Shown piece after piece: positions 4,633 to 56,500 of a DNA stretch of 64,000 bases. Every line of letters starts with the position of its first letter. Positions within the stretch are counted from its first letter, which is position 1. Source of the DNA: Watersipora subatra (lineage: Eukaryota; Bryozoa; Gymnolaemata; Cheilostomatida; Watersiporidae); contig NC_088717.1 in assembly GCF_963576615.1 (NCBI RefSeq), positions 31,165,213 through 31,229,212 on the forward strand, in the 5' to 3' direction. Position numbers and translations under genes: made by a program. Under the pieces are notes generated by a model, which was not told the origin of the DNA, did no database searches, and was given only the letters and a program-made list of their open reading frames with translations.

Positions 4633-4639
4633 TGCGCTC

Positions 4640-5679
4640 TGTAATTTAAAAATGATATTATTATAACCTACATAAAAACCATGAAGAAGTATAACTGAGC
4701 TCTACTCTTTTTCACTCTTTCTTGTCAGCATTGTTTACAAGGTTAAGAGTTTGTTAACCGAAACATTTCAAACAGTTTATTTCATCGAGTTACTTGATAA
4801 TACTTACAATTACTTTAGGCAGTATGCAGCGTGGAAAAACAGCAGCGAAGTGTTGAACAGCGGGGAAGCTATTAAAAAGAATGAGAAATCTTGCTCAGTG
4901 GGTATTTGCTCAGTGTTCAAACAGCTGAGTAAGACTACAGAGCAGGAGAGATATACAACTTGACATAGGCAGCACCAATAAGTAATCTCACAAATTCTGT
5001 GACATCACTAGTTTAAGTAGAACCTGTGCATTTTTGTCATTACTGTTATGTATAGAACTTGTTTATTCTAGAAAGTTCTATGGTGTTATTTACTTCTCAG
5101 CAATTTTATAAAATCGGTTGAATAATTTAAACACCGAACTTATTGGCTAAGAATATTCTGTAACTTAACTTAACTTTGTATAAAGAATAATTAATAATTC
5201 AAACAGTTTATAATATAATTGTCTCAAGGGTAGACTACAATAAGGAAGCGCTATGTGAATCTGTTAGTATAATCATTAGCATCAACACAGCAGCGAATAG
5301 AGTAGGAAAGAGTAGACAACTGGCATACGTATAATTAGATGTGTTTGATATTTTGATTAGGTTATGGATTTTCAAAAACTGTAAATTAATGTCAATGTTA
5401 AAATGCATCATAAACAAATAATTTAGATTTAAAAAATATTCTAGAAACACGACCTTTAATTCTAATTTAAAGAAGGTCAAAGGAGGTACTTCTACTAAAT
5501 TTGATTATATTTTAAGTTCTTTCAAAATTATCATGCATAGTGCAGAAAATATACAGCTAGTTTGACAAAAAAACGTATTTAATAAAAAAATATTTTAGAG
5601 CACGCGCTCAGATGAGAAGGCAGAGCTGTTCTGCGCCTGTTCTACACTTGTTGCATTAACAGAACTTTTAACAAAATTT
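4640..5679. other. No gene recognised
   Basis: AT-rich. The open frames at 4751-4963 (+) and 5235-5480 (-) have no recognisable motif or splice context, and I do not call them. Confidence 0.5.
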
Positions 5680-28443: not shown

Positions 28444-30230
28444 CACCTACTATCTACTACCTACTCTCTACTACCTACTCTCTATTACCTACCCTCTATT
28501 ACCTACTCTCTATTACCTACTCTCTATTACCTACCCTTTATTACCTACTCTCTATTACCTACCCTCTATTGCCTACTCTCTATTACCTACTGTCTATTAC
28601 CTACTCTCTATTGCCTACCATCTATTACCTACCCTCTATTACCTATTCTCTATTGCCTACTCTCTATTACCTACTCTCTACTACCTACTCTCTACTACCT
28701 ACTCTCTATTACCTACTCTCTATTACCTACCCTCTATTACCTACCCTCGATTACCTACTCTCTATTACCTACTCTCTATTACCTACTCTCTACTACCTAC
28801 TTTCTATTACCTACTCTCTATTACCTACCCTCTACTACATACTTTCTATTACCTACTCTCTACTACCTACTCTCTATTACCTACTGTCTATTACCTACTC
28901 TCTATTGCCTACCTTCTATTACCTACCCTCTATTACCTATTCTCTATTGCTTACTCTCTATTACCTACTCTCTACTACCTACTCTCTACTACCTACTCTC
29001 TATTACCTACTCTCTATTACCTACCCTCTATTACCTACCCTCGATTATCTACTCTCTATTACCTACTCTCTATTACCTACTCTCTACTACCTACTCTCTA
29101 TTACCTACTCTCTATTACCTACTCTCTATTACCTACTGTCTATTACCTACTCTCTATTACCTACTCTCTATTACCTATTGTCTATTACCTACTGTCTATT
29201 ACCTACTCTCTATTACCTACCCTCTATTACCTACCCTCGATTACCTACTCTCTATTACCTACTCTCTATTACCTACTCTCTACTACCTACTCTCTATTAC
29301 CTACTCTCTATTACCTACTCTCTACTACCTACTCTCTATTAACTACTCTCTACTACCTACTCTCTATTACCTACTCTCTATTGCCTACCTTCTATTACCT
29401 ACTCTCTATTACCTACTCTCTACTACCTACTCTCTATTACCTATTCTCTATTACCTACTCTCTACTACCTACTCTCTATTACCTACTCTCTACTACCTAC
29501 TCTCTATTGCCTACCCTCCATTACCTACTCTCTATGACCTACTCTCTATTACCTACTCTCTATTACCTACTCTCTATTACCTACTCTCTATTACCTACTC
29601 TCTACTACCTACTCTCTACTACCTACTCTCTATTACCTACTCTCTATTACCTACCCTCTATTACCTACCCTCGATTATCTACTCTCTATTACCTACTCTC
29701 TATTACCTACTCTCTATTACCTACTCTCTATTACCTACTCTCTATTACCTACTTTCTATTACCTACTCTCTATTACCTACTGTCTATTACCTACTATCTA
29801 CTACCTACTCTCTATTACCTACCCTCTATTACCTACTCTCTATTACTTACTCTCTACTACCTACTCTCTATTACCTACTCTCTATTGCCTACCCTCTATT
29901 ACCTACTCTCTACTACCTACTCTCTATTACCTACCCTCTATTACCTACTCTCTATTACCTACCCTCTATTACCTACCCTCTATTACCTATTCTCTATTAC
30001 CTATTCTCTATTACCTACTCTCTACTACCTACTCTCTATTACCTACTCTCTACTACCTACTCTCTATTGCCTACCCTCCATTACCTACTCTCTACGACCT
30101 ACTCTCTACTACCTACTCTCTACTACCTATTCTCTATTACCTACTCTCTATTACCTACCCTCTATTACCTACCCTCGATTACCTACTGTCTATCTTTTCA
30201 GTCTACTACCACTCTCTATTACCTACAGTT
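28444..30230. repeat. 14-bp minisatellite, about 127 copies
   Basis: Consensus CTACTCTCTATTAC with point variants (CTACCCTCTATTAC, TGTCTATTAC, CTACTACCTACTC). Because 14 is not a multiple of three, each frame cycles through the same 14-residue peptide, and none of the three plus frames meets a stop over most of the array. The very long open frames here are therefore not evidence of genes. Confidence 0.97.
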
Positions 30231-31698: not shown

Positions 31699-34600
31699 CT
31701 ACATATATATAAGAAGGTATCAGATTGAATGGACTGACAAAAAGAATAAACAGTGGAACAAAATCCAGAAGTAAAACAGATCATCTGCTACTGTTACAAA
31801 GAAATTCACCTCTTTAAAATTTCTAATTTACAGCTTATATATACCAACTTCATCAGCCTGTCTAATTTACAGCTTATATATACCAACTTCATCAGCCTGT
31901 CTAATTTACAGTTTATATATACCAAACTCATCAGCCTCTCTAATTTACAGCTTATATATACCAACTTCATCAGCCTGTCTAATTTACAGCTTATATATAC
32001 CAACTTCATCAGCCTGTCTAATTTACAGTTTATATATACCAACTTTATCAGCCTGTCTAATTTACAGCTTATATATACCAACTTCATCAGCCTGTCTAAT
32101 TTACAGCTTATATATACCAACTTCATCAGCCTGTCTAATTTACAACTTATATATACCAACTTCATCAGCCTGTCTAATTTACAGCTTATATATACCAACT
32201 TCATCAGCCTGTCTAATTTACAACTTATATATACCAACTTCATCAGCCTGTCTAATTTACAACTTATATATACCAACTTCATCAGTATGTCTAATTTACA
32301 GCTTATATATACCAACTTCATCAGCCTGTCTAATTTACAGCTTATATATACCAACTTCATCAGCCTGTCTAATTTACAGCTTATATATACCAACTTCATC
32401 AGCATGTCTTATTTACAGTTTATATATACCAACTTCATCAGCCTCTCTAATTTACAGTTTATATATACCAACTTTAACAGCCTGTCTAATTTACAGCTTA
32501 TATATACCAACCTCATCAGCCTGTCTAATTTACAGTTTATATATACCAACTTCATCAGCCTGTCTAATTTACAGCTTATATATACCAACTTCATCAGCCT
32601 GTCTAATTTACAACTTATATATACCAACTTCATCAGCCTGTCTAATTTACAGCTTATATATACCAACTTCATCAGCCTGTCTAATTTACAGCTTATATAT
32701 ACCAACTTCATCAGCATGTCTTATTTACAGTTTATATATACCAACTTCATCAGCCTCTCTAATTTACAGTTTATATATACCAACTTTAACAGCCTGTCTA
32801 ATTTACAGCTTATATATACCAACTTCATCAGCCTGTCTAATCTACAGTTTATATATACCAACTTCATCAGCATGTCTTATTTACAGTTTATATATACCAA
32901 CTTCATCAGCCTGTCTAATTTACAGCTTATATATACCAACTTCATCAGCCTGTCTAATTTACAGCTTATATATACCAACTTCATCAGCCTGTCTAATTTA
33001 CAGTTTATATATACCAACTTCATCAGCCTGTCTAATTTACAGCTTATATATACCAACATCATCAGCCTGTCTAATTTACAGCTTATATATACCAACTTCA
33101 TCAGCCTGTCTAATTTACAGCTTATATATACCAACTTCATCAGCCTGTCTAATTTACAGCTTATATATACCAACTTCATCAGCCTGTCTAATTTACAGCT
33201 TATATATACCAACTTCATCAGCATGTCTTATTTACAGTTTATATATACCAACTTCATCAGCCTGTCTAATTTACAGTTTATATATACCAACTTCATCAGC
33301 CTGTCTAATTTACAGCTTATATATACCAACTTCATCAGCCGGTCTAATTTACAACTTATATATACCAACTTCATCAGCCTGTCTAATTTACAGCTTATAT
33401 ATACCAACTTCATCAGCATGTCTTATTTACAGTTTATATATACCAACTTCATCAGCCTGTCTAATTTACAGCTTATATATACCAACTTCATCAGCCTGTC
33501 TAATTTACAGCTTATATATACCAACTTCATCAGCCTGTCTAATTTACAGCTTATATATACCAACTTCATCAGCCGGTCTAATTTACAACTTATATATACC
33601 AACTTCATCAGCCTATCTAATTTACAGCTTATATATACCAACTTCATCAGCCTGTCTAATTTACAGTTTATATATACCAACTTCATCAGCATGTCTTATT
33701 TACAGTTTATATATACCAACTTCATCAGCCTGTCTAATTTACAGCTTATATATACCAACTTCATCAGCCTGTCTAATTTACAGCTTATATATACCAACTT
33801 CATCAGCCTGTCTAATTTACAGCTTATATATACCAACTTCATCAGCCGGTCTAATTTACAACTTATATATACCAACTTCATCAGCCTATCTAATTTACAG
33901 CTTATATATACCAACTTCATCAGCCTGTCTAATTTACAGCTTATATATACCAACTTCATCAGCCTCTCTAATTTACAGCTTATATATACCAACTTCATCA
34001 GCCTGTCTACTTTACAGTTTATATAAGTAGTATATAGAGAGCAGATCTACACACAAAAGTGACGGATCCAGCGGGGGGATAGAAAAAGGGGGTTGTGAAT
34101 TAAATTGGCTAGGGGTGTAGATTGAATCGTGTGGAGTTGAATGAGATGTTGGGGTTTGGGGGGAAATTGTGGTGTAGAGTAGGGGGTTGAATTCGAGGGG
34201 TTACGGATCCGCTCCTGGCGTAATCGGCGGATTATCTGTGGATGAGTCATCGGATTAGCGGGGGATGAGTCATCCGATTGAACGCGGATTATCGCGGGAT
34301 TAGTCGGGGGAATCGTCGCGGATTAGTCGGGCGAATCGTCGCCGATTATCGGTGGAATAGTGGGGGTGAATATCTGGGACATCGAGGGCTGGATGGTTTT
34401 CCGGAGTGGATCTCGCGGATTATCGAGGAGAGCGAGAGATTACCTAGCGGATGAGTGAGGGGGTTAATATCTGGGACACCGAGGGGTTGATTTTCCGGAG
34501 ATTGTTATATATTTGGTTGAATGAGAGATAAGTTTTTATTATAAAATATAAACTATAAATGTTACAAAAAATTCAAAATCATTCTGTCATTCGTTTTAAA

Positions 34601-37600
34601 AAGGAAAGTTTTGGAATACATCTTTCTTGAATTTCATTCAATCCCAATTTTCTTCTTCTTCTTTCATTGTCGAATGAGAATGAACTGTCTACAATCAAAA
34701 CATACATTATTTTTAGTGAGATATAGTAAAAGTAAGACATACAATCAGATTAGATCATTCATTCAAACTAAAAATCAAATATAATGTAATACTTACTGAA
34801 GAAGAAGAAGATCCATCCTTTTTCTGAATGGAATCTTCCTGTTGAGATACGGGAGCCTGCAATTGCAATGATTACAGTCAGGATGGATTACTATAACCTT
34901 GCTGAGATAGTAGACTCTACATTCACAATGGACTCCAACTTAAATTGTAAATTTCAATTGCATTAGTCATCGAATCATAGAATGATATGCAAGATGTAAT
35001 GCAAACAGAATAGGATATGCAACCAGCTAGAGTAGGACATACAGACAATAAGAAAAACAAATATGTTACATCACATAGTCAGACTAGGACACACAGACAG
35101 AGGAGGATATTCAGTTAAAATAAAGAAATAAATATAATGTACTACTTACTGAAGATTCAAATTCATAAAGCCTTCTCCGAAAAGGACTATATTTAGTTCG
35201 GTGATGCCCAGGATCCTACAATTGCATTGATTATAGTCAGAGTAGAACATGCAGACAAATTAAAACACAGTCAGGTCTTACTTTGAATTTCAATTCCAAC
35301 TCCTTTTGTTTTAAAGTGGAGTTATACAAAATATTAATTACTGTTTTCACAGATTGATACTCATTTTAACATTCCTACATACCAATTGGAGTGAATTTTG
35401 TTGAATGTATTTGAACTTTAGTTACATGTTTTATCATTATACAACGATATTAGACGAAATAAATATAATGTAATACTTACTTTTAAAGTCAATGTAACAT
35501 CGAAGTTACGAAAGAACTCCTCTCTTTGCTGCTGCATGACCAATGATTTCTACAATAATTTCCAAATTACTTTGTATAATTTAATTGTTTCATTTAAGCA
35601 AACCCTATAATTCGAAATATATTTAATATGTAGTTTATATTCTCAAGTTTCCTTTAACCCTTTCACTGCCGAGCATGTACAAATTTGGGTATTTGCCAAG
35701 TACCAGCCATTTTACCGAAAATTGCCGATATTGCTTCATGGTATGTAAACAGTATTTTTTCCAATTTCAATCTCTATTCAGAACAATTTTATTACATATT
35801 TTAATTTGCTAACATTGTAGCCATCATTGCTATGCAAAAATTCAACGAATCTATACTTTGTGCGATGATAAAGCTGTGTGATGCTATGATCGATGCGAAG
35901 CTAAAACGATCTTCCGTGTTTCTTACTCTCACAAAATTATTACTTTCACTACTCTCAGAGACAGTGCTGCTGCTTTAACTATCTGTATAATCACGAAAAT
36001 CTGAATCTGAAATGGCTATAATGCCATCAACATTACTAATTACCTGTTTTCTGACTCGCGCGCGGTAATTAATGAACTCACACAAAAAATGTTCGTTATA
36101 AAATTAGAAGTTCTCTAACAAAAGTTTGAAATTGATTCGTTACTTTAGGTTAATTTTATAAACAAATCTTCAGACAACACTGTCAATTTCATAAAAGTCT
36201 GAAAGACCGTGGGTTATGCTGTCAACGAATAATAAAATGAGGTAACTACGCAATGGCTGGGAAAGTCGCATTAATGCGTCTACGGCAGTGAAAAGGTTAA
36301 TCAAAAATATAATTTAGTAAAATATTATAATGTAATACTTACTTTCTTTTGAAGCTTGATCTTGTTTCGAAAAGCCTTCTGTTTTTCAGGATCTACCTCT
36401 CTACCCCAAGGGCAGTAGCCCCATATCTCCACACACGTGTCGATGCAATTTGTCTGAGTTAGGAGTCTATCCACGTTTTTGTCTCGAGCACACATTGTAA
36501 ACTATTATAAATAAAATGAGATGAAAAACTTATTCTTTCTCGTTGCTTATATAGTAAGTAGAAGCAATGTTATGGTTCATTAAATTTGTGTAATTTATGT
36601 TCACGAAATTGTAAAATCAGCTAAACAGTTTTCGCGAAATTCACTTTCGCGAAATTCAATTTCGCGAAAGTTGACTATATAATATATATGTGTAATTTCG
36701 CGAAATCCAATTTCGCGAAATCCAATTTCGCGAAATTCACTTTCGCGAAAGTTGACTATATAATATATATAATGTGTAATTTCGCGAAATTCACTTTCAC
36801 GAAACTCAATTTCGCGAAAATCTGTTTACTATTTTCGCTTCATTAATTCCTTTGGACACACCCATCATTCTTCAATTCACTATATAAGCGTTGCATAATC
36901 TGATGGAATATTCTGCCTCATTAACCATCTCTTGATACCTACTTATATTTGAGAATTTGGGTCGATCGAGTGTTGATACCATAAGGCTTGTATGCTTCAG
37001 CTAGAATTCTGTTAGCCGGCTACTCGCGATTAAGTTCGTTGAGTGTCGCTGTTTTCAGGGGCTGTTGTGTGGACAAGCGCCTTGGCATTCGACTTGATTG
37101 TTTTCCTAGGTTTACCTATGGAATTCTCCTGTTTGGTTTGGCTTAACCATTCCATAACAGTTTCTCGACCAGTAAATAGATGAAGATGATGAACTAGTAA
37201 AGGGGCATACATGGATTAATATGTGGATTATTTTGAGGATAGCTCCAACTCAGTGTGAGTATATCAATATATAAAACTTATATCAAAAAGTAAATAATAT
37301 TCGGTTGTATTTGTTACCAACTTTATTTCGATATAAAGTATATATGTATATTCAATTGTAAAATATAGAAAAAAAAAATTTATGTCAGATCTTCTAGTAA
37401 TTTAACAATTTGGGAAGTTCCTTGAATATGTACATTGTCAACACCTTCATTTTCTTCGTTATTAAGACTTTTACTAATTTTTTTTTTCATTCCAATCATA
37501 TCTATCTAGTATAGTTTTTCGAACTACATGATCTCGTGTATCTGTTTCAGAAATTTTTAGCATAACTGTTAGAAAATCTTCTATTGAACATCCTCTGCTC

Positions 37601-40600
37601 CAAAATATTGCAAAGAGAAGACAGTAATCTCCACATGTTGTTGAAAGAATTGTTTCCAATGAAACAACCTTGTTGCCAATGACGTGCAACTAAATTTTTG
37701 GTTCAACAATTCCATTTCTAATTATTTTTTCAAAAACGGTAAAACCAGACCGTTATCGTCATGACAATAAGAAACACACCGAGTTTGTTCAACGCAAAGA
37801 AAAGCGTCAGGAATTTTGTGAGAGTAAGAGTTGCTAAACAATTTTACACCTATCTTGTGGAGAATTTTGTTCTGAATAAGATACATTTAAAAGTAAAACG
37901 ATATATGTTTTCATTTTTTGAGATATTGCTTAAATACTAACGGTATATCGGATTTTTTAGAAAATCCGTTTGAATTAACTTGGGCAGAATAATCGTTTGG
38001 TCAACAATTAACGTGGTAGCGAAAGAGTTAATATACAAGTGAGCAGTGATTATAAATGTATATATAATAATAAAATGTGAGTAAGATAAAAGCTACTGAA
38101 GATACAATAAACAAAGCTAGGATTGTGCTAGTCCATGTTGATATACAAGGGAGCAGTGATTATAAATATATATATATAATAAATCGTGAGTAAGATAAAA
38201 GCTACTGAAGATACAATAATCAAAGCAGAATTGTACTAGTCTATGTTGATGTACAAGTGGGCAATGATTATAAATGTATATATAATAATAAAATGAGAGT
38301 AAGATAAAAGCTACTGAAGATACAATAAACAAAGCTAGGACTGTACTAGTCCATGTTAATATACAAGTGAGCAGTGATTATAAATATATATATAATAATA
38401 AAATGAGAGTGAGTAATGTGAGTATATATAATAATACATTTTATTATTATATATAATTATAATCACTGCTCACTTGTAATCACTGCTCACATGGACTAGC
38501 ACAGTCCTAGCTTTGTTTATTGTATCTTCAGTAGCTTTTATCTTACTCACATTTTATTATTATATATACATTTATAATCATTGCTCACTTGTACACCAAC
38601 ATAGACTAGTACAATCCTAGTTTTTGTTTATTGTATCTTCAGTAGCTTTTATCTTACTCATATTTTATTATTATATATATTTATAATCACTGCTCCCTTG
38701 TATATCATCATGGACTAGTACAATCCTAGCTTTGATTGTATCTTCAGTAGCTTTTATCTTACTCACATTTTATTATTATATATACATTTATAATCATTGC
38801 TCACTTGTATATCAGCATGGCCTAGCACAATCCTAGTTTTGCTTATTGTATCTTTAGTAGATTTTATCTTACTCACATTTTATTATTATATATACATTTA
38901 TAATCACTGCTCACTTGTATATTAACATGGCCTAGCACAATCCTAACTTTGTTTATTGTATCTTCAGTAGCTTTTATCTTACTCACATTTTATTATATAT
39001 ACATTTAAAATCATTGCTCACTTGTACATCAACAGGGTCTAGCACAATCCTAGCTTTGTTTTATTGTATCTTCAGTATCTTTTATCTTACTCACGTTTTA
39101 TTATTATATATTCATTTATATTCGCTGCTCACTTGTATATTAACATAGACTAGCACAATCCTAGCTCTGTTTATTGTATCTTCAGTAACTTTTATCTTAC
39201 TCACATTTTATTATTATATATACATTTATAATCACTGCTCACTTGTATATTAACACGGACTAGCACAATCCTAGCTTTGTTTATTCTATCTTGAGTAGCT
39301 TTTATCTTACTCACATTTTATTATTATATATACATTTATAATCACTGCTCACTTGTACATTAACATGGACTAGCACAACCCTAGCTTTTATCATACTCAC
39401 ATTTTATTATTATATATACATTTATAATCATTGCTCACTTGTATATCAACATGGCCTAGCACAATCCTAGTTTTGCTTATTGTATCTTTAGTAGTTTTTA
39501 TCTTACTCACATTTTAATATTATATATACATTTATAATCACTGCTCACTTGTATATCAACATGGACTAGCACAATCCTAGCTTTGTTTATTGTATCTTCA
39601 GTAGCTTTTATCAATTATTCTAAAGTGCTGTAAAAGATCATCAGGAGTGTTAATAAAGTACTGAGAATAAGTATGTGTACAATTATTATAAAGTGCTGTA
39701 AGAGAACATCAGGAGTATTAATAAAGTACAGAGAATAAGTATATGTACAATTATTATAAAGTGCTGTAAGAGATCATCAAGGGTGTTAATAAAGTACAGA
39801 GAATAAGTATATGTACAATTATTATAAAGTGCTGTCAGAGATCATCAGGATTGTTAATAAAGTACAGAGAATAAGTATATGTACAATTATTATAAAGTGT
39901 AGTAAGAGATCATCAGGAGTGTTATTAAAGTACAGATAATAAGTATATGTACAATTATTATAAAGTTCTGTAAGAGTTCATCAAGAGTGTTAATAAAGTA
40001 CAGAGAATAAGTATATGTACAATTATTATAAAGTGCTGTAAGAGATCATCAAGAGTGTTAATAAAGTACTGAGAATAAGTATATGTACAATTATTATAAA
40101 GTGCTGTAAGAGATCATCAGGTGTGGTAAAAAAGTACAGATAATAAGTATGTGTACAATTATTATAAAGTGTAGTAAAAGACCATCAAGAGTGTTAATAA
40201 AATACAGAGAATAAGTATATGTACAATTATTATAAAGTGCTGTAAGAGATCATCAAGAGTGTTAATAAAGTACTGAGAATAAGTATATGTACAATTATTA
40301 TAAAGTGCTGTAAGAGATCATCAGGTGTGGTAAAAAAGTACAGATAATAAGTATGTGTACAATTATTATAAAGTGTAGTAAAAGACCATCAAGAGTGTTA
40401 ATAAAATACAGAGAATAAGTATGTGTACAATTATTATAAAGTGTAGTAAGAGATCATCAAGAGTGTTAATAAAGTACAGAGAATAAGTATGTGTACAATT
40501 ATTCTAAAGTGCTGTAAAAGATCATCAGGAGTGTTAATAAAGTACTGAGAATAAGTATGTGTACAATTATTATAAAGTGTTGTAAGAGAACATCAGGAGT

Positions 40601-43600
40601 ATTAATAAAGTACAGAGAATAAGTATATGTACAATTATTATAAAGTGCTGTAAGAGATCATCAAGAGTGTTAATAAAGTACAGAGAATAAGTATATGTAC
40701 AATTATTATAAAGTGCTGTCAGAGATCATCAGGATTGTTAATAAAGTACAGAGAATAAGTATATGTACAATTATTATAAAGTGTAGTAAGAGATCATCAG
40801 GAGTGTTATTAAAGTACAGATAATAAGTATATGTACAATTATTATAAAGTTCTGTAAGAGTTCATCAAGAGTGTTAATAAAGTACAGATATTAAGTATAT
40901 GTACAATTATTATAAAGTGCTGTAAGAGATCATCAAGAGTGTTAATAAAGTACAGAGAATAAGTATATGTACAATTATTATAAAGTGTTGTAAGAGATCA
41001 TCAGGTGTGTTAACAAAGTACAGATAATAAGTATATGTACAATTATTATAAAGTGCTGTAAGAGTTCATCAAGAGTGTTAATAAAGTACAGATATTAAGT
41101 ATATGTACAATTATTATAAAGTGCTGTAAGAGATCATTAGGGGTGTTAATAAAGTACAAAGAATAAGTATATGTACAATTATTATAAAGTGCTGTAAGAG
41201 ATCATCAGGTGTGTTAACAAAGTACAGATAATAAGTATATGTACAATTATTATAAAGTGTAGTAAGAGATCATCAAGAGTGTTAATAAAGTACAGAAAAT
41301 AAGTATGTGTACAATTATTCTAAATTGCTGTATGAGATCATCAAGAGTGTTAATAAAGTACAGAGAATAAGTATGTGTACAATTATTCTAAATTGCTGTA
41401 TGAGATCATCAGGAGTGTTAATAAAGTACTGAGAATAAGTATATGTACAATTATTATAAAGTGCTGTAAGAGATCATCAGGTGTGTTAATAAAGTACAGA
41501 GAATAAGTATATGTACAATTATTATAGAGTGCTGTAAGAGATCATCAGGAGTGTTAATAAAGTACTGAGAATAAGTATATGTACAATTATTATAAAGTGC
41601 TGTAAGAGAACATCAAGAGTGTTATTAAAGTACTGAGAATAAGTATATGTACAATTATTATAAAGTGCTGTAAGAGATCATAAAGAGTGTTAATAAAGTA
41701 CAGAGAATAAGTATATGTACAATTACTATAAAGTGCTGTAAGAGATCATCAGGTGTGTTAACAAAGTACAGATAATAAGTATATGTACAATTATTATAAA
41801 GTGCTGTAAAAGTTCATCAAGAGTGTTAATAAAGTACAGATATTAAGTATATGTACAATTATTATAAAGTGCTGTAAGAGATCATTAGGGGTGTTAATAA
41901 AGTACTGAGAATAAGTAGATGTACAATTATTATAAAGTGTAGTAAGAGATGATCAGGAGTGTTAATAAAGTACAGAGAATAAGTATATGTACAATTATTA
42001 TAGAGTGCTGTAAGAGATCATCAGGAGTGTTAATAAAGTACCGAGAATAAGTATATGTACAATTATTATAAAGTGCTGTAAGAGAACATCAAGAGTGTTA
42101 ATAAAGTACTCAGAATAAGTATATGTACAATTATTATAAAGTGCTGTAAAAGATCATCAGGAGTGTTAATAAAGTACAGAGAATAAGTATATGTACAATT
42201 ACTATAAAGTGCTGTAAGAGATCATCAAGAGTGTTAATAAAGTACTGAGAATAAGTATATGTACAATTATTATAAAGTGCTGTAAGAGATCATCAGGTGT
42301 GGTAAAAAAGTACAGAGAATAAGTATGTGTACAATTATTATAAAGTGTAGTAAAAGTCCATCAAGAGTGTTAATAAAATACAGAGAATAAGTATGTGTAC
42401 AATTATTATAAAGTGTAGTAAGAGATCATCAAGAGTGTTAATAAAGTACAGAGAATAAGTATGTGTACAATTATTCTAAAGTGCTGTAAAAGATCATCAG
42501 GAGTGTTAATAAAGTACTGAGAATAAGTATGTGTACAATTATTATAAAGTGCTGTAAGAGATCATCAGGAGTATTAATAAAGTACAGATAATAAGTATAT
42601 GTACAATTATTATAAAGTGCTGTAAAAGATCATCAAGAGTGTTAATAAAGTACAGAGAATAAGTATATGTACAATTATTATAAAGTGCTGTAAAAGTTCA
42701 TCAAGAGTGTTAATAAAGTACAGATATTAAGTATATGTACAATTATTATAAAGTGCTGTAAGAGATCATCAAGAGTGTTAATAAAGTACAGAGAATAAGT
42801 ATATGTACAATTATTATAAAGTGCTGTAAGAGATCATTAGGGGTGTTAATAAAGTACAGAGAATAAGTATATGTACATTTATTATAAAGTGCTGTAAGAG
42901 ATCACCAGGTGTGTTAACAAAGTACAGATAATAAGTATGTGTACAATTATTATAAAGTGTAGTAAGAGATCATCAAGAGTGTTAATAAAGTACAGAGAAT
43001 AAGTATGTGTACAATTATTATAAAGTGCTGTAAGAGATCACCAGGTGTGTTAACAAAGTACAGATAATAAGTATGTGTACAATTATTATAAAGTGTAGTA
43101 AGAGATCATCAGGTGTGTTAATAAAGTACTGAGAATAAGTATATGTACAATTATTATAAAGTGCTGTAAGAGATCATCAGGTGTGTTAATAAAGTACAGA
43201 GAATAAGTATATGTATAATTATTATAAAGTGCTGTAAGAGATCATTAGGAGTGTTAATAAAGTACTGAGAATAAGTATTTGTACAATTATTATAAAGTGT
43301 AGTAAGAGATCATTAGGTGTGTTAATAAAGTACTGAGAATAAGTATATGTACAATTATTATAAAGTGCTGTAAGAGATCATCAGGTGTGTTAATAAAGTA
43401 CAGAGAATAAGTATATGTATAATTATTATAAAGTGCTGTAAGAGATCATTAGGAGTGTTAATAAAGTACTGAGCATAAGTATTTGTACAATTATTATAAA
43501 GTGCTGTAAGAGATCATCAGGTGTGTTAATAAAGTACAGAGAATAAGTATATGTACAATTATTATAAAGTACTGATAAAGATTGTACATGAACATTTTCT

Positions 43601-46600
43601 TATGTATATATTCAATGTTTCATTTATACTATATTATCTTTATTGTGTCCTATCTACTTGAATATTTTCATATATTTCAAGTTAAACATAAACTATTTTA
43701 TTTTTATTGAAACAAAATGATGATGGAAATAATGAATAATACATATAAATATATCTTTTAAAGTGAATAATTTTGTAATAAAACTGATCTTTCATTCAAC
43801 ATATTAATTTCTCCAACAAATTTCAATCTTACATACAAAAAAAATACAAAAAAAACCGAAAATAAATTCCTTAAAATTCTTAACCATTCAAGAGCTTCAA
43901 CATTACAAAATCATCAAATCTTCAAAAAATAACTTTGTACATAAACACTTTCTCATATATATTCAATGTTTCAAATATATAACAATCTCCGGAAAATCAA
44001 CCCCTCGGTGTCCCAGATATTAACCCCCTCACTCATCCGCTAGGTAATCTCTCGCTCTCCTCGATAATCCGCGAGATCCACTCCGGAAAACCATCCAGCC
44101 CTCGATGTCCCAGATATTCACCCCCACTATTCCACCGATAATCGGCGACGATTCGCCCGACTAATCCGCGACGATTCCCCCGACTAATCCCGCGATAATC
44201 CGCGTTCAATCGGATGACTCATCCCCCGCTAATCCGATGACTCATCCACAGATAATCCGCCGATTACGCCAGGAGCGGATCCGTAACCCCTCGAATTCAA
44301 CCCCCTACTCTACACCACAATTTCCCCCCAAACCCCAACATCTCATTCAACTCCACACGATTCAATCTACACCCCTAGCCAATTTAATTCACAACCCCCT
44401 TTTTCTATCCCCCCGCTGGATCCGTCACTTTTGTGTGTAGATCTGCTCTCTATATACTACTTATATATACCAACTTCATCAGCCTCTCTAATTTACAGTT
44501 TATATATACCAACTTCATCAGCCTCTCTAATTTACAGTTTACATATACCAACTTCATCAGCCTGTCTAATTTACAGGTTATATATACCAATTTCATCAGC
44601 CTGTCTAATTTACAGTTTATATATACCAAACTCATCAGCCTCTCTAATTTACAGCTTATATATACCAACTTCATCAGCCTGTCTAATTTACAGCTTATAT
44701 ATACCAACTTCATCAGCCTGTCTAATTTACAGTTTATATATACCAACTTTATCAGCCTGTCTAATTTACAGCTTATATATACCAACTTCATCAGCCTGTC
44801 TAATTTACAGCTTATATATACCAACTTCATCAGCCTGTCTAATTTACAGTTTATATATACCAAACTCATCAGCCTCTCTAATTTACAGCTTATATATACC
44901 AACTTCATCAGCCTGTCTAATTTACAGCTTATAATTACCAACTTCATCAGCCTGTCTAATTTACAACTTATATATACCAACTTCGTCAGCCTGTCTAATT
45001 TACAGCTTATATATACCAACTTCATCAGCCTGTCTAATTTACAGTTTATATATACCAACTTTATCAGCCTGTCTACTTTACAGCTTATATATACCAACTT
45101 GATCAGCCTGTCTAATTTACAGCTTATATATACCAACTTCATCAGCCTGTCTAATTTACAGCTTATATATACCAACTTCATCAGCCTGTCTACTTTACAG
45201 CTTATATATACCAACTTCATCAGCCTGTCTAATTTACAGCTTATATATACCAACTTCATCAGCCTCTCTAATTTACAGCTTATATATACCAACTTCATCA
45301 GCATGTCTTATTTACAGTTTATATATACCAACTTCATCAGCCTGTCTAATTTACAGCTTATATATACCAACTTCATCAGCCTGTCTAATTTACAGCTTAT
45401 ATATACCAACTTCATCAGCCTGTCTAATTTACAGCTTATATATACCAACTTCATCAGCCTCTCTAATTTACAGCTTATATATACCAACTTCATCAGCCTG
45501 TCTACTTTACAGTTTATATATACCAACTTCATCAGCCTCTCTAATTTACAGTTTATATATACCAACTTCATCAGCCTCTCTAATTTACAGTTTATATATA
45601 CCAACTTCATCAGCCTGTCTAATTTACAGGTTATATATACCAATTTCATCAGCCTGTCTAATTTACAGCTTATATATACCAACTTCATCAGCATGTCTTA
45701 TTTACAGTTTATATACTATACCAACTTCATCAGCCTGTCTAATTTACAGCTTATATATACCAACTTCATCAGCCTGTCTAATTTACAGCTTATATATACC
45801 AACTTCATCAGCATGTCTTATTTACAGTTTATATATACCAACTTCATCAGCCTGTCTAATTTACAACTTATATATACCAACTTCATCAGCCTGTCTAATT
45901 TACAGCTTATATATACCAACTTCATCAGCATGTCTTATTTACAGTTTATATATACCAACTTCATCAGCCTGTCTAATTTACAGTTTATATATACCAACTT
46001 CATCAGCCTGTCTAATTTACAACTTACATGTATATATACCAACTTCATCAGCCTGTCTAATTTACAGCTTATATATACCAACTTCATCAGCCTGTCTAAT
46101 TTACAGTTTATATATACCAAACTCATCAGCCTCTCTAATTTACAGCTTATATATACCAACTTCATCAGCCTGTCTAATTTACAGCTTATAATTACCAACT
46201 TCATCAGCCTGTCTAATTTACAACTTATATATACCAACTTCGTCAGCCTGTCTAATTTACAGCTTATATATACCAACTTCATCAGCCTGTCTAATTTACA
46301 GTTTATATATACCAACTTTATCAGCCTGTCTACTTTACAGCTTATATATACCAACTTGATCAGCCTGTCTAATTTACAGCTTATATATACCAACTTCATC
46401 AGCCTGTCTAATTTACAGTTTATATATACCAACTTTATCAGCCTGTCTAATTTACAGCTTATATATACCAACTTCATCAGCCTGTCTAATTTACAGCTTA
46501 TATATACCAACTTCATCAGCCTGTCTAATTTACAACTTACATGTATATATATACCAACTTCATCAGCCTGTCTAATTTACAGTTTATATATACCAACTTC

Positions 46601-49600
46601 ATCAGCCTGTCTAATTTACAGCTTATATATACCAACTTCATCAGCCTGTCTAATTTACAGCTTATATATACCAACTTCATCAGCCTGTCTAATTTACAGC
46701 TTATATATACCAACTTCATCAGCATGTCTAATTTACAGTTTATATATACCAACTTCATCAGCCTGTCTAATTTACAGCTTATATATACCAACTTCATCAG
46801 CCTGTCTAATTTACAGCTTATATATACCAATTTTATCAGCCTGTCTAATTTACAGTTTATATATACTAACTTCATCAGCATGTCTTATTTACAGTTTATA
46901 TATACCAATTTCATCAGCCTGTCTAATTTACAGCGTATATATACCAACTTCATCAGCCTGTCTAATTTACAGCCTATATATACCAACTTCATCAGATTAT
47001 ATATAAATATACATTTTAAGGTGAGAAAGTGTAAGAAAAACAAAAACACAGCCTCATGCGGATGCATTTTGAAACATTTGGCGAAAAAGTCTGCAAAATA
47101 TTGCATTTCTATGATATTATGATATACATGTATGCATTACTTTGCTATTGTAATATACATGCATGCATTACTATGCTATTATAATAAACATGTATGCATT
47201 ACTATGATATTATAATATACATGTATGCACTGCTATGATATTATAATATACATGTATGCATTACTATGATATTATAATATACATGTATGCACTGCTATGA
47301 TATTATAATATACATGTATGCACTGCTATGATATTATAATATACATGTATGCATTACTATGATATTATAATATACATGTATGCACTGCTATGATATTATA
47401 ATATACATGTATGCACTGCTATATATTATAATATACATGTATGCACTGCTATGCTATTAAAACTTTGAGATACGGATACAAATATATATGAATTTATATA
47501 CAGATAAAATAAATAATTAGGGTCAAAGATAAATTATTAACTTTGCTAAAATAACTAGAGATTTGTCTGGCTCATTCTGCTGTTTACACAATGACCTTTT
47601 GACCTGGTGAAATGCTGGTTATTTCACTTTCTAATCGATCATCACATAATATTCCATTATGATATTGCTATTCCAATACAATATTGTTATTCCAATATGA
47701 TATTGCTATTCCAATACAATATTGTTATTCCAATATGATATTGCTATTCCAATATGATATTGCTATTCCAATACGATATTGCTATTCCAATACGATATTG
47801 CTATTCCAATACGATATTGCTATTCCAATACGATATTGCTATTCCAATACGATGTTGCTATTCCAATACGATATTGCTTGTATCGGTAGAGTTGACAGAG
47901 CAGAGCAGTCAAGTCCTTACTTCTGGGCACCGAAAGAAAAAAGACAAGTGACCGCACCCATAATTATCTCAGTGATCAGATGTTTTTTCATGGTAAATAT
48001 TAGGCTATATTAAAATATAGTCACCAATGCTGACAAGAAGAAACAACAGAAAGCGAATGAAATTTGTCAATTTTGCGACTAAAACTCTGCCACTTCTCTT
48101 AGCATAATATTCACATAGGTTTCACGTTTTTCTATTATTTGTGTTACCGCTGTTAAAGTGAACATTGAAAGTCTATAAATCTAGAAATGTCTCTACGTTG
48201 AAATCTAGTTTTTCCTGATAGTTAAATGTTATTAACTGCTACATCAAGGGGTAGAATGGTTTTAGCCTGTGTTCATTAAAGGTGCCAAACTGATTGCTAA
48301 ACAAATACTCTTCAACAGCTGTTGAGGTGCCTAAGATTCTATTTGGATTCAGACTAGGACTCAGCATGGCAGCAATTATTAGATCCTAGGGCTTTCTGCT
48401 ATGTTAAGAAGAGTAACACATCATGGAATTGAAACTATGCTGTGCATCAGACTGGCCCACATATTGATTTAGTGTTGTTATTAATAAAATCGCGCAGCAG
48501 GGAACCGAGACTAAAATGTCTGTTTATATTTCATGTCTTCCAAGCTTAATAACACACCAGGATTAATGGAATGTAAATTTTTCATGCTAACTTCATGAGT
48601 AAATGAGAAGGAAAACTCAGGCATTGCACTCAGAGGTAGTTGGAAATACCTTTTGAATGTCGCATCTTCATACGCAGAAATCTCACAACTAACTCGTTAA
48701 AGAGAATATAGAAGACCATGAGACACGCGCTGCTCACTCCGGAGACGAGAAAAAGAAACTGGCATCCCGTTGGATCATCAGGACTTTTATAGTACTCGGC
48801 AAAGTATCCTCCGAGGAGGCTTCCGAGTCCAAGACCTGAGGGAGTATTAAATGTGGTTGAGCAGCCATTACTTATCAAAGAAATCTGTTCATATATGAAA
48901 AACCTGATGCTAGCGTGAGTGGGTTCAGTATGTGAGTGGGTTCAGTGACAACTCAATATTAATGACAGCGACAAGTTTTCTTAATATTTTAATTACTCAA
49001 AATGATTAAAGGTAATATAGCGAGAACATTTATTGTTACTAATTGATGATGCAACTAATTTAGGTAAGTCATTGTGATGCATCATATTTCAACTCTGTCA
49101 CTGACTGAAGAGCTCCGTAAAAAATCTCCAAATTCTAATTGCAACCAGAAAATAATAAATCAACCATCTTTCTACAGATTTCTTAGCACTGTTTTAATTA
49201 TGGTTTTTCCTCAGGTAACATGTTTTCACATTACGAAGAAAAAGGTAACTTTTGATCAATGTCACTATATCTCATAGACGTTGTTACTTTGAATGCAGGA
49301 CTTATGTTCAATCGTATGTGCCTGGCTACATCTTATACCATGACTGTAGTGTGCGTCTGGCTACATATTATACCATGACTGTAGTGTGTGTCTGGCTACA
49401 TATTATACCATGACTGTAGCATGTGTCTGGCTACATATTATACCATGACTGTAGTGTGTGTCTGGCTACATATTATACCATGACTGTAGTGTGTGTCTGG
49501 CTACATATTATACCATGACTGTAGTGTGTGTCTGGCTACATATTATATCATGACTGTAGTGTGCGTCTGGCTACATATTATAGCATGACTGTAGTGTGTG

Positions 49601-52600
49601 TACCATGCCTAATAATATACATGTATGCACTGCTATGCTATTATAATATACATGTATGCACTGCTATGATATTATAATATACATGTATGCACTGCTATGC
49701 TATTAAAACTTTGAGATACGGATACAAATATATATGAATTTATATACAGATAAAATAAATAATTAGGGTCAAAGATAAATTATTAACTTTGCTAAAATAA
49801 CTAGAGATTTGTCTGGCTCGTTCTGCTGTTTACACAATGACCTTTTGACCTGGTGAAATGCTGGTTATTTCACTTTCTAATCGATCATCACATAATATTC
49901 CAATATGATATTGCTATTCCAATACAATATTGTTATTCCAATATGATATTGCTATTCCAATATGATATTGCTATTCCAATACGATATTGCTATTCCAATA
50001 CGATATTGCTATTCCAATACGATATTGTTATTCCAATATGATATTGCTATTCCAATACAATATTGCTATTCCACTATGATATTGCTATTCCAATACAATA
50101 TTGTTATTCCAATACGATATTGCTATTCCAATACAATATTGCTATTCCAATATGATATTGCTATTCCAATACAATATTGCTATTCCAATATGATATTGCT
50201 TTTCTAATACAATATTGCTATTCCAATATGATATTGCTATTCCAATATGATATTGCTATCCCAATATGATATTGCTATTCCAATACAATATTGTTATTCC
50301 AATATGATAATGCTATTCTAATACAATATTGCTATTCCAATATGATATTGCTATTCCAATACAATATTGTTATTCCAATATGATATTGCTATTCCAATAT
50401 GATATTGCTATTCCAATATGATATTGCTATTCCAATACGATATTGTTATTCCAATACAATATTGTTATTCCAATATGATATTGCTATTCCAATATGATAT
50501 TGCTATTCCAATATGATATTGCTATTCCAATACAATATTGTTATTCCAATATGATATTGCTATTCCAATACAATATTGTTATTCCAATATGATATTGCTA
50601 TTCCAATATGATATTGCTATTCCAATATGATATTGCTATTCCAATATGATATTGCTATTCCAATACAATATTGTTATTCCAATATGATATTGCTATTCCA
50701 ATACAATATTGTTATTCCAATATGATATTGCTACATATTATATCATGACTAGTGTGTGTCTGGCTAAATATTATATCATGACTGTAGTGTGTGTCTGGCT
50801 ACATATTATACCATGACTGTAGTGTGCGTCTGGCTACATATTATATCATGACTGTAGTGTGCGTCTGGCTACATATTATATCATGACTGTAGTGTGTGTC
50901 TGGCTACATATTATATCATGACTGTAGTGTGCGTCTGGCTACATATTATATCATGACTGTAGTGTGCGTCTGGCTACATATTATATCATGACTGTAGTGT
51001 GTGTCTGGCTACATATTATATCATGACTGTAGTGTGTGTCTGGCTACATATTATATCATGACTGTAGTGTGTGTCTTGCTACATATTATACCATGACTGT
51101 AGTGTGCGTCTGGCTACATATTATACCATGACTGTAGTGTGCGTCTGGCTACATATTATACCATGACTGTAGTGTGTGTCTTGGTCGCAAATTTGGACCA
51201 TTATGAGAGGGATTCCAACCTACGGCGTTTTCGTGATGGCTGCGATAAACTGTTTTGTTTTTTAGCTTTCAAGAGCTTGTAATCACATTTCTGCATACTT
51301 TGAACCTACTACACATCAGAATAAGTCATGATGAATCATTTGATACCAAATAACTGTAATGTGAAGTCTCGTTGCAAGTCAACCTTTAATAAAAATGTGC
51401 TGTAATCTTCCACTGCCCAATGACTTGTGATAATTTCCTTATAAATACCGCAGGTAATTATAAAAATTTGAAATAAAGAGTCACCGGTATACCAAATTTT
51501 CTAATGATATAAAACAGCTAAATGAAAACCAAGTTTTTTATTCACACCTTGCAGGTTGCACATTTCAATCTAGGACTACAGTAATAAGTTGAGAATGTTT
51601 CAAATACCGTACTTTTCGGACTATTAGTCACTACTTTTTTTGATGTTTCGAGTCATGTGGCTTATATAAGGGTGCGGCTATGCTGTGGTTTTTTCTTTCA
51701 AAGCTAGGGTGCTTTAACCGGACTCTCTGGTTAGTGCGCTTCTAGCGGTGAAAGAGAAAATGAAACAACGCCTAACGGTACTGTTCCGTTAGGCACTGTC
51801 TTCAAAAAGCATCTTTTAATACAGAACAGTGCCTAACAGCACTGTTCCGTATTAAAAGACGCTATTTAACCCAGTGCCTAATGGTTGCTGTTGTCCAGTG
51901 ACTAACGGTTGCTGGTTTAACTTTGTTGATTAATACAGAAGAGTGTCTAACGGCACTGTTCCTTATTAACCAGCAAAGTTGCTGCCGTATTAAAAAGCAC
52001 CATCATGACTTCTGCGGCCTATACAAAAGCTGCAGCCTATGTATTGTTTTATTGTCGGTTTTTGAAAATAAAGCAGATTCGGCTTATATAGGGGTGCGGT
52101 TAATAGTCCGAAAGGTACGGTACGTCAAAGGCTCAATTTATTTTCTAAAACTTCTTACAGCATTATTATATTTCCATGTTTGTTTGTTTCATCAATAGAA
52201 AAATAGAAATAACGAGCAATAAATGGAACAACACAAAGGAGGTGATGATGAAGCCATATGCCATATGAATATGCAACGGTGAACCAATCAAGGCAAGGCC
52301 CAGTTAGATGATAGCAGAAAAAAAATCGACTCTCACTCTCGCTCCAGAAGATGAACTCTTAGACTATTTTTAAATTTGAAAATGGTCCTATGTTTGTTAA
52401 CATATATAGGTAGTTGGTTCCATAGCACCGATTCTTGGTATGCTGTTTTTGATGACTGGCAGTAGAGCTAGATGGTGGAATGGTAAATTTACTTTTACAA
52501 TGTACTTTCATTATGCTTTCGCTTACAGATTAGACCCTCCTACAATGTAAATGAGAACATTTACGTTACACAAAGGTTATAGCACGTGACCGGAGAGAGG

Positions 52601-52982
52601 CGCGTGGACAGAGAAATAGATTGGCTGGCAGAGGTCCTTGAATGATTGGCGTTAGTACCCCAGGCCCCAGCCCACCAATTCATCACACTTCAGCACTCAG
52701 GATCCGAAGAGTACCCTCCAACCAAGTGGCCAGATAGTTGGACATTCTAGCCAAGTTCCAGTTTACGCTGAAACACCAAGCCAGTCTCCGTCACGGGAAC
52801 GCTAATGGGCTCAGTGTAACAATCAGGGCTCAGTGTTACAATCCTTTCGATACAACTATGGCTGACTCAAATGATGCATTCCATGCCGAGCTGTCCACCG
52901 ACTGAGGCACCTCTGAAAAGGTCCTAACAAGAGAAAGAGGAGAGAAAGAGGAGAGAAAGAGGAGAGAAAGAGAAGGAAAGAA

Positions 52983-53025
<43 letters not shown>

Positions 53026-53066
53026 AAGAGAGAAAGAGAGAGAGAGAGAAAAAAAGAGAGAGAGAA

Positions 53067-53097
<31 letters not shown>

Positions 53098-53142
53098 GAC
53101 AGAGAGAGAAAAGAGAGGAGAGAGAGAGGAGAGAGGAGAGAG

Positions 53143-53182
<40 letters not shown>

Positions 53183-53526
53183 GAGAGAGAGAGAAGAGAG
53201 AGAGAGGAGAGAGAGAGGAGAGAGAGAGGAGAGAGAGAGGAGAGAGAGAGGAGAGAGAGAGGAGAGAGAGGAGAGAGAGAGAGGAGAGAGAAAGAGTGGA
53301 GAGAGAGGAGAGAGAGAGGAGAGGGAGAGGAGAGGGAGAGGAGAGGAGAGGGAGAGGAGAGAGAGAGGAGAGAGGAGAGGGAGAGGAGAGGGAGAGGAGA
53401 GGGAGAGGGAGAGGAGAGGGAGAGGAGAGGGAGAGGGAGAGGAGAGAGAGAGAGCGAGGAGAGAGAGAGAGAGAGCTAGGAGAGAGAGAGAGAGAGCTAG
53501 GAGAGAGAGAGAGCGAGGAGAGAGAG

Positions 53527-53558
<32 letters not shown>

Positions 53559-56500
53559 CTAGGAGAGAGAGCTAGGAGAGAGAGCTAGGAGAGAGAGCAA
53601 GGAGAGAGAGCGAAGAGAGAGAGCGAAGAGAGAGAGAGCGAGGAGAGAGAGCGAGGAGAGAGCGAGGAGAGAGAGCGAGGAGAGAGAGCGAGGAGAGAGA
53701 GCGAGGAGAGAGAGCGAGGAGAGAGAGCGAGGAGAGAGAGCGAGGCGAGAGAGCGAGGAGAGAGAGGTGATGGCAGGCTCACCGAGCTCAAAAAAGTAGT
53801 CTAAATCTTTATAAAAACAATGTTGGTGTTTTGAGCCAGATAAACGATCAACTGTGTTAGTTAATAACCCCAAGCGCTTCAAGTGTGAGTATTTTAACCA
53901 ATGTAGTTGATCTAATCACAATCATTTATTAAAAGAGTCTGCTGAGCGATTGAAGTCTAGTGGTTTAGATGGCAAGTCTTCAGACCTGGAGGTACTAAGA
54001 TCGCATACTTTGCGAAGCAGATTGTTCCTTGCTTGATTTTACTTGTTATAACTGAACACAGTTATGACCGACAAAAAAAAACACTAATATATTTATATAT
54101 ATTTCTAAAAGTTAATCATCGTTGTATATGTCCAGCTATAGCTATTAAGATCTTAGTATTAAAAGTTTTAATAGTTAAAAGAAATTAGTACCGCAAGTTT
54201 AAAATCCCGTCAGTTTACCACTGAGCCATTTAATGCATAATCATCCAAGTAGTTATCATATACCACTATAGCGCATGCAGAGGCTAATTTTTTTTAGCAT
54301 TGCGCCCACGTGTTACGATACCCCTGTTAAGAAATATTTTAGGACCTAAGTTAATGCAACACGATGCTTCTTCGTCTTTTTTTGTTAGAGCTAATTAGTT
54401 CTGCCCCGTGATATTAACAATGATATCATCAAACTTAAAATTTCGCGATTTGTATACTGATTATATACGTTATTAAAATATTTACGTCGCTCGCTTATAC
54501 TATTAATTCAACAAATTCAGAATTTTTATTTGGTTTTCTCAGTCTGTATTAATTGTGTCATTACCGAATCATCTTTTATCGTAGCAGAACAGACTTAACT
54601 TCGCTATTACTTACTAATTATTTCATAATTACATTTAAGCACTTTTATAGCTGTTTTATTTTTTTAATTCATTTGACCTGAACAAAAATCTTTCCTCATG
54701 ATATGAAATTTGAAAGTTACAGCTGTTTGAAAAAGTTTGAAAACTTTGCAGTTGTTTTTATTTTTTCTCCTAATTTATTTTAACTACACAAAACACTTCT
54801 CATGATATGTAGTTTGAAAGTTAGAAAGGCAAATGTTGTTATATATTAAATACAAATTAATTTTCTGTCCAAAGACTTTTTCACTACCCAGGCAGTACAG
54901 CTAGTATATTATATATATACTAGCTTGATGCCCGGCATTTCCCGAGTATCAAAAATCAGCTTATAAACAATGAGAGGAAATGTAGTTGCCTGCCACTTGC
55001 TATTAGTCTAACACATTGCCAATGGCTAATTTGAGTAAGCTTCCTAATACGAGCTAACTACTTGCTCTTACGATTGAGCACACACAACATTATGCTGCTG
55101 CTTCTCATAACATTGCGCGGTAACAGAGAGCGGTAGTGTATTTTCTCCCGTACAGCTACATACAATGTATATCACTGAATGTGGCTGAATTGGCACGGCT
55201 TTGGACATGCAAATGGAAGGAACAGGTTTTTATTCCAAGAATCTAATAGCTGGACAAACACATGGACAGACCAACTTTGAAAAACATATATATATATAGA
55301 CATATATCATATATTTTTATGTACATGTATATACATGTATATCCAGATACCCCAGTAGTTCATTTTCTCTCTCAAGTGCAGCAAGAGACAAAATGATACT
55401 TTCAAGGGTAACTATGGAACGCTCGTTGTTAAAAACAAATTTGAGAGCTTGCACCAACTTGACGCTTTACTTTATATAAAGTTTTTTGCATATGTTAAAG
55501 CAAAGACTTTACATAAATTTAACTTAAACATAACTTTAAATTAAAGTACACTTATGTAGAATGTAATTTATAGCTAATAATAATGGAATAAAATGAGGTT
55601 TACATTATAGGGATGTCTACTGTACTTTTACTAAAGAAATATCAAGTTGTTTGGCGTTGTTGGCAAATTATCTATCATGAGCATAAGAATATATAATGTA
55701 TATAATAATATATATGATTATATCATGAATATAAGCAAAAACTAAAAATTAAGCTGTGTATTACAAACAAATCATTTACCATATAATCGTGAGAACTCGC
55801 TTACCTGGACAGCTAACTCCCATGTTAACATTCCAACTCGACAGCCAGCGTTAGAATACATCCTAAATGAGTTAAATCTAAAAGAACCAGCTGACTGCTG
55901 CTAGTTCAAAAGGTGACCTACCTAGTCCCCATTTGATGCCATTAATGAGCCCGACCATTGTGCCTGTATAACCATTGGAGGTTATCTTTCCTGCATGCAT
56001 ATTCGCTGCGGTAAACGTGAGGCCAAAGGTGAAGGTGTGTGTAGTCTCTAGAAGAACTGCCCACCATGATGTTGGTATGAAGACCAAGCCCAAGAACTTG
56101 ACAGCATAAGCTATCAAAGCAATGTATAAGCAGGCCATCGTCCCTATCTGCCACAAAGAGAAATGAAGAATGTTTGGAATAGCAAAACATTTCAATAAGA
56201 GTGGTTATTATTCAGTGAAATAGGTAAAATTGTATGAGAAGCGTGAGACTATAATGCTAATACTAGGTGAATGCCCGGCATTGTCAGAGTAATAAAAGTG
56301 TGTTTGCACAGAAAATTTATTTAACATATAACAAGTTACCGTTCTAACTGTCAAACTTCATATCATGAGAAAAGCGTTATGTGCAATTTAAATAAATTAA
56401 AAAAGAACAAATAAAACAACTGTATTCATACTTTTTTCAAACAGCTGTAAATTTTAAATTTCATATCATAAAAGAAATGTTTTGTGCAGGCGAAATAAAT

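Follow-up and report, generated by a model that had tools for sequence, protein, structure and literature searches.

A 64,000-nucleotide stretch of the genome of the bryozoan Watersipora subatra (contig NC_088717.1, positions 31,165,213 to 31,229,212 of the forward strand, in an assembly of 784 Mb and 239 contigs; hereafter the window) contains a 10,436-bp element at window positions 34026-44461, inserted inside a satellite with a 39-bp unit. From sequence alone, the element had been put forward as a recent Polinton-like insertion with a nonstandard gene set. It is bounded by 490-bp terminal inverted repeats (TIRs), the left at 34026..34515 on the plus strand, with the tip AGTAGTATATAGAG, and the right at 43972..44461 on the minus strand, as the reverse complement of the left. 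The arms, which the original prediction had described as looking identical, agree at 490/490 positions, and the match breaks off at 34516. The element ends read AGTAGT...ACTACT, and copies of TATATA lie outside them at 34020..34025 and 44462..44467, which bears out the AG/CT termini and the duplicated TATATA. When the flanks are joined through one TATATA, the resulting 69-mer has 0 mismatches to satellite elsewhere in the window; at the other 16 offsets tested, from -8 to +8, the mismatches number 6 to 29. Removal of the element thus restores the satellite, as had been claimed.

The length of the target-site duplication (TSD) required other copies. Since TATATA is palindromic, the window site taken alone fits a TSD of 6 bp with AG..CT ends, or of 4 or 2 bp (TA), an ambiguity that the reading of TATATA as a 6-bp TSD had overlooked. 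The reading itself stands: the TSD is exactly 6 bp in 13/13 copies with both flanks read (the window and 12 others), and it reaches 7 bp in 0/12 of the others. This count leaves out the 15.4-kb copy and the copy P11 introduced below, for each of which one flank is available. A TA or 4-bp TSD is therefore ruled out, and none of the copies read has a TSD of another length.

We call the interior of the window element type A. From left to right come a subterminal module of 120 bp, a predicted gene on the minus strand with a nested miniature inverted-repeat transposable element (MITE), TTTCGCGAAA repeats, 110-bp repeats, a 68-bp array, and a second subterminal module. The left module (34516..34635, ∼120 bp) includes what we read as an AATAAA-like signal. 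The gene predicted at 34638..36495 (minus strand) has five exons (36495-36343, 35549-35481, 35215-35150, 34856-34797, and 34688 onward, the frame of the last being tentative) that would encode a 132-amino acid (aa) protein, with four predicted phase-0 introns having GTAAGT donors. It is present in six further copies (P1, P4, P6, P7, P9, and P11), and in the most divergent of these, P9, two gaps fall within exons and are 3 bp each; judged from these features, it is a plausible gene. The introns within 34723-35481 have similar end stretches (GTAAGTATTACATTATATTT-like donors and, in two, GCAATTGYAG acceptors), and they look as if exon-intron units had been duplicated or the introns were repeat-derived. 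The MITE (35658..36296, 639 bp, TTAA-flanked) lies within an intron; from its ends and its TTAA target we read it as piggyBac-like. The window element, P1, P4, and P11 all carry it at one and the same position, as does P9, where the MITE has itself been interrupted. In P6 and P7 the precise unoccupied site is seen, with a single TTAA. The filled site in five type A copies, together with the exact empty site in two, indicates that type A itself has been copied repeatedly to new sites.

The rest of type A is largely repetitive. A TTTCGCGAAA-rich repeat array (36630..36819) is followed by 110-bp repeat arrays (38027..39612) in opposite orientations (38027-38410 and 38436-39612), a 68-bp satellite array of ∼58 units (39612..43582), and the right subterminal module (43583..43971). 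The 68-bp and 110-bp arrays make up 53% of the element, in line with the earlier description of it as more than half satellite. The 68-bp array differs in length among copies, and the middle 4.8 kb read from a 20.4-kb copy is all 68-bp satellite, so this array evidently grows and shrinks. A candidate protease remnant at 37474-37689 (minus strand), adenain-type by eye, was rejected after it gave no Pfam or PDB match and none to the protease of a Polinton in this genome. P9 also carries a different 197-aa open reading frame (ORF) and the right-hand module at both ends; a 1.46-kb stretch at 3376-4837 of this copy (L045), within its nested MITE, is found in P9 only and contains a 'GEPINRLD' repeat open in several frames.

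The window element belongs to a large family. A genome search with the 490-bp TIR, in which 40 of 667 candidates were scored, returned 40/40 matches at 100% over the full length, 26 with the top bit score and 14 slightly lower. The exact 34-base tip occurs 189 times in the genome (92 forward and 97 reverse), and its backwards control 0 times. The 490-bp module might have proven to be an ordinary single repeat; among the 100 tips listed, 90 form 45 inverted pairs with spacings of 4.3 to 20.4 kb (median 11.04 kb), and 10 are unpaired, one only because it is the last listed. Pairs at 45 different places argue against a misassembly of the arms. We read eleven further pairs, P11 without its right flank, and they contain two kinds of interior. 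P1, P4, P6, P7, P9, and P11 (7.3 to 11.3 kb) are type A. P2, P3, P5, P8, and P10, which we call type B, are 11.04-11.06 kb long and 99.1-99.96% identical to one another in their longest matches. The type A copies read range from 4.3 to 11.3 kb, and one partly read copy spans 20.4 kb. The 4.3-kb copy, L056, has the same tips, a 6-bp TSD, and ∼407 bp of matched TIR.

Across the genome, 122 exact copies of a 40-base type B marker were counted (backwards control, 0), and this marker lies inside 24/45 pairs, namely all 21 of 10.84-11.43 kb and three longer ones. The 21/45 pairs without it comprise 19 of 4.3-10.7 kb and two at 17.3 and 20.4 kb; five of the 19 were read (P4, P6, P7, P9, and L056), and all are type A-like. 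Size alone does not separate the types, since the type A copy P1 measures 11.3 kb. In the region common to both listings (75 markers on C1-C6 minus 7 past the last listed tip), only 24/68 markers fall inside exact-tip pairs, so many type B copies must be older, be truncated, or have altered tips. That the longer same-TIR copies are complete Polintons was considered and, for the copies read, rejected: those of 15.4 and 13.8 kb are type B with an insertion that we name Gypsy-like and piggyBac-like, respectively, and the 4.8 kb read from the 17.3-kb copy is a Gypsy element. A 13.7-kb copy contains the type B marker. Two type B copies on C2 (50097643-50109065 and 52628379-52639803), separated by 2.5 Mb, have one right flank in common, so that the insertion with its surroundings looks duplicated, either segmentally or in assembly.

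Type B (∼11.0 kb) has a long plus-strand frame that combines a C2H2 finger with the landmarks of a family-B polymerase. We recognized YDIE and FNSQNYD in the exonuclease, DANALY as motif A, KLIGNSSYGK as motif B, and MDTDS as motif C, and we read GT-AG introns between motifs B and C. The commonest open polymerase frame is 1,385 codons. When a 635-aa piece was searched against the genome, 341 candidates emerged; the 69 best, which were scored, are 98-100% identical, and within this piece 51/69 are stop-free and 18/69 contain stops. Between motifs A and B lies a Vsr-like domain (TIGR00632, 3.2e-7; PF03852, 2.5e-5, each below the curated cutoff; PDB 1odg/1vsr, 2.3e-5). Further frames encode proteins of 322 aa (minus strand), of 206 and 191 aa, which are paralogues (3e-9), and of 240 aa with what we read as a signal-peptide-like start. 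In the five type B copies checked, the frames are open except in P5, which is cut in the 240-aa frame and in which the motif C anchor was not found. A comparison of the type B polymerase with IMG/VR gave 5 pattern matches, none confirmed as a relative. The suggested genome check for longer relatives with both a polymerase and an integrase succeeded for the polymerase and found no integrase.

The same genome also contains a capsid-bearing Polinton (C5:27984197-28000200), which we take to be adintovirus-like. It has AG..CT termini, a 6-bp TSD (TGCCTA), and 598-bp TIRs of 99.5% identity, and encodes a double jelly-roll capsid protein (PF21738, 3.6e-41), an A32 ATPase (PF04665, 2e-6), a protease by our own reading (hmmscan found nothing for it), and an integrase ORF with a weak, subthreshold Chromo match by hmmscan. 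It also encodes a protein with a phospholipase A2-like domain (PF08398, 1.6e-8) and one that we read as RING-like. Eleven of its proteins served as queries against types A and B, and among these the polymerase alone finds type B, in three collinear stretches (4e-16, 0.005, and 0.031). The capsid protein, the ATPase, and one unnamed protein match A and B at E values of 2.2-4.5 only, and the protease has no match there. The window element gave no meaningful match to any of the eleven, and no polymerase was found in it, in agreement with the original prediction that polymerase, integrase, ATPase, and capsid genes are not visible there. Having no recognized gene of these four kinds, the window element fails as a complete Polinton.

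Types A and B have in common the 490-bp TIR, the AGTAGT/ACTACT tips, 6-bp TSDs, both subterminal modules, and the TTTCGCGAAA-rich array. Moreover, the left module of the window element codes for 18 aa that match the C-terminal end of the type B 240-aa frame at 94% identity; in P9, 36 aa of the 322-aa frame survive, likewise at 94% identity. Given these remnants of type B genes, type A is probably derived from type B by deletion; as judged from these sequences, its most likely ancestor is a type B-like element that lost its middle and gained other DNA. The ends of the two types are more alike than their neighboring DNA would predict. All 24 ends compared, from both A and B, begin with AGTAGT, and their TIRs differ from that of the window element at 0-1/490 sites. 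The right module differs between the window and P2 by 11 substitutions in 344 aligned positions, with 7 gap blocks, a rate that would predict ∼16 differences over the TIR. The arms of the older 15.4-kb copy diverge more (98.6 and 99.2% identity). This homogeneity could reflect copying of one end from the other as the linear form replicates, strong constraint, or gene conversion, and we favor the first. In adenovirus-like linear genomes, end repair is understood to go by copying, and our preference is based on this.

Taken together, the ends, the TSD, and the same-TIR relatives make it well supported that the window element is Polinton-derived and mobilized in the Polinton manner. The proposal that it represents a non-autonomous Polinton family with its own spliced gene gains support from the polymerase-bearing relatives and from the five predicted exons. 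Since the longer same-TIR relatives carry a polymerase and no recognizable integrase or capsid gene, the element is likely a parasite of an unusually stripped-down Polinton. We read the window insertion, with a probability of roughly 0.8, as a recently mobilized, non-autonomous type A derivative of the 11-kb type B, a Polinton-derived element of which only the polymerase is recognized, with integrase acting in trans. Type B would make the polymerase, which would recognize the TIR ends common to A and B. Both types would then be replicated by protein priming through a linear intermediate, as the polymerase type and the TIRs suggest. An integrase acting in trans, most simply from the capsid-bearing Polintons of the same genome, would carry out the 6-bp staggered insertion of the linear copies. 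As type A lost most of the genes of type B, it may have picked up the satellite load and the small spliced gene as passengers. The near-identity of the TIRs would be most simply explained by replication in which one end is copied from the other, or by gene conversion. A bolder version, which we advance tentatively and hold to be somewhat short of even odds, is that a Polinton lineage left the viral lifestyle in two tiers: an integrase-less and capsid-less type B that borrows integrase from virus-like Polintons of this genome or uses a new integration enzyme of its own, and a satellite-loaded hyperparasite, type A, that borrows the type B polymerase and swaps TIRs with type B.

Several observations weigh against the derivation of the window element from type B with integrase supplied in trans. 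The integrase query from the same-genome Polinton gave no match in A or B at E ≤ 5, which leaves the integration step without an identified enzyme. As a control, this query finds the Gypsy integrase in L058 (2e-7) and misses that in L049 (1/2), so its reach is limited and the absence is evidence at that sensitivity, not proof. The 490-bp TIR shows no sequence relationship to that of the single capsid-bearing Polinton studied (best E, 1.5), which makes the use of the integrase of that Polinton a guess. The direction of descent, A from B, rests on two short gene fragments, and the 132-aa protein of type A has no convincing Pfam or PDB relative. The ratio of nonsynonymous to synonymous changes in four young type B copies against P2 is 0.21-0.43, from as few as 5-10 and 5-6 changes each; in two older copies it is 0.83-0.86, as expected of dead copies, and in one of these two, the 13.8-kb copy, the frames are partly broken. 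Finally, the PF03175 profile matches the genome 35 times, in some cases more than once within the same gene, and no type B copy is among these matches. Here we note that hmmscan missed PF03175 even in the polymerase of the capsid-bearing Polinton, which scored 93.3 bits in the genome search. Its silence on type B accordingly proves nothing, and direct alignment was used instead.

The rival that survives best holds that type B has an integration enzyme of its own that escapes recognition, either the Vsr-like nuclease or the 322-, 206-, 191-, or 240-aa protein, in which case type B would be autonomous and type A would need only type B. Type B is indeed abundant (122 exact markers) and young, it has these four open frames of no known function, and no integrase was found in it, though the query used detected just one of two Gypsy integrases. 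On the other side, group I Mavericks are reported to carry a Vsr insert as well (PMC10328495), and an RVE-type integrase is named as a Polinton/Maverick gene in PMC12721341, PMC8097293, and PMC4028283. Nor do the four extra proteins help, as none has a Pfam match above the cutoff, and the best E values of the 322-, 206-, and 240-aa proteins against PDB are 1.6, 0.12, and none. We regard a self-sufficient type B as possible but unlikely.

We consider it very improbable that the elements are cut-and-paste DNA transposons of another superfamily with a 6-bp TSD, whose ends were captured by a polymerase element. Other superfamilies that make 6-bp TSDs do exist, and the window element has no recognized Polinton gene. 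Yet A and B are alike over the whole 490-bp TIR and both modules, type A holds type B gene fragments, and the end motif and TSD length fit those of Mavericks (PMC8097293). Slightly less credible still is an autonomous type A driven by its spliced 132-aa protein: the gene recurs in P1, P4, P6, P7, P9, and P11 with 3-bp exon gaps in the divergent P9, but the protein belongs to no catalytic family, a polymerase-bearing partner exists, and the protein has no match in the 4.3-kb L056, whose tips are the same and whose TSD is 6 bp. An assembly artifact or segmental duplication within the satellite, for which the 39-bp satellite flanks and the one apparently duplicated insertion (C2:50.10 and 52.63 Mb) might be cited, is the least likely of the rivals and is refuted for the family by perfect 6-bp TSDs at 13 sites with differing flanks and by the 45 inverted pairs.

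The ends, the TSD, and the type B polymerase are known Polinton/Maverick features, and the Vsr insert is a group I feature. According to PMC8097293, (AGT)2//(ACT)2 is the commonest end motif of vertebrate Mavericks; our elements resemble the vertebrate group I Maverick/Polinton in this motif, in the 6-bp TSD, and in a TIR length within 46-1,447 bp. The type B polymerase with its Vsr-like insert further resembles group I Mavericks, whose polymerase is reported to carry a Vsr-endonuclease insert (PMC10328495). Unlike these, type A has no recognized core gene, and type B has no recognized integrase, ATPase, protease, or capsid gene and has apparent polymerase introns. According to PMC4028283, 9/72 Polintons have no major capsid protein, protease, or ATPase, and Polintons are discussed as lying between viruses and transposons; type B resembles such capsid-less elements in the loss of virion-building genes but also has no recognized integrase. 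At 11.0 kb, type B is shorter than intact vertebrate Mavericks (12.7-24.6 kb). The capsid-bearing Polinton of the same genome has in common with our elements AG..CT termini, a 6-bp TSD, long TIRs, and a related polymerase, but differs in having capsid, ATPase, integrase ORF, and (by our reading) protease, and in the sequence of its TIR.

MITEs and other non-autonomous DNA transposons keep their ends, lose or replace their interiors, and are mobilized in trans. Type A likewise keeps its ends, but it is very large and satellite-filled, and its partner has a polymerase in place of a transposase. Our literature search, in which subscription journals were thinly covered, found nothing on non-autonomous Polintons/Mavericks or on the same system. 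Repbase may list non-autonomous Polintons. What seems unusual is the combination of a high recent copy number with no recognized integrase, together with a satellite-filled, non-autonomous partner that carries a spliced gene. The family is large and young, has Polinton-type ends and a Polinton-type polymerase but no recognized virion gene or integrase, and comes with non-autonomous dependents. It allows a direct test of two questions, whether Polinton polymerase and integrase work in trans and how TIRs are kept identical, and it shows a route by which large satellite blocks can be moved around a genome.

Elsewhere in the window, unrelated tandem arrays are abundant around the element (28445-30226, 47102-51181, and 52930-53766), with 14-, 19-, 31-, and 35-bp units and AG-rich units. 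An MFS-like reading frame at 58147-59055 (minus strand; PF12832, 2.4e-11) crosses a minisatellite array at 58432-58882, whose 15-bp unit, repeated ∼30 times with 98% matches, adds a long pentapeptide repeat to the frame.

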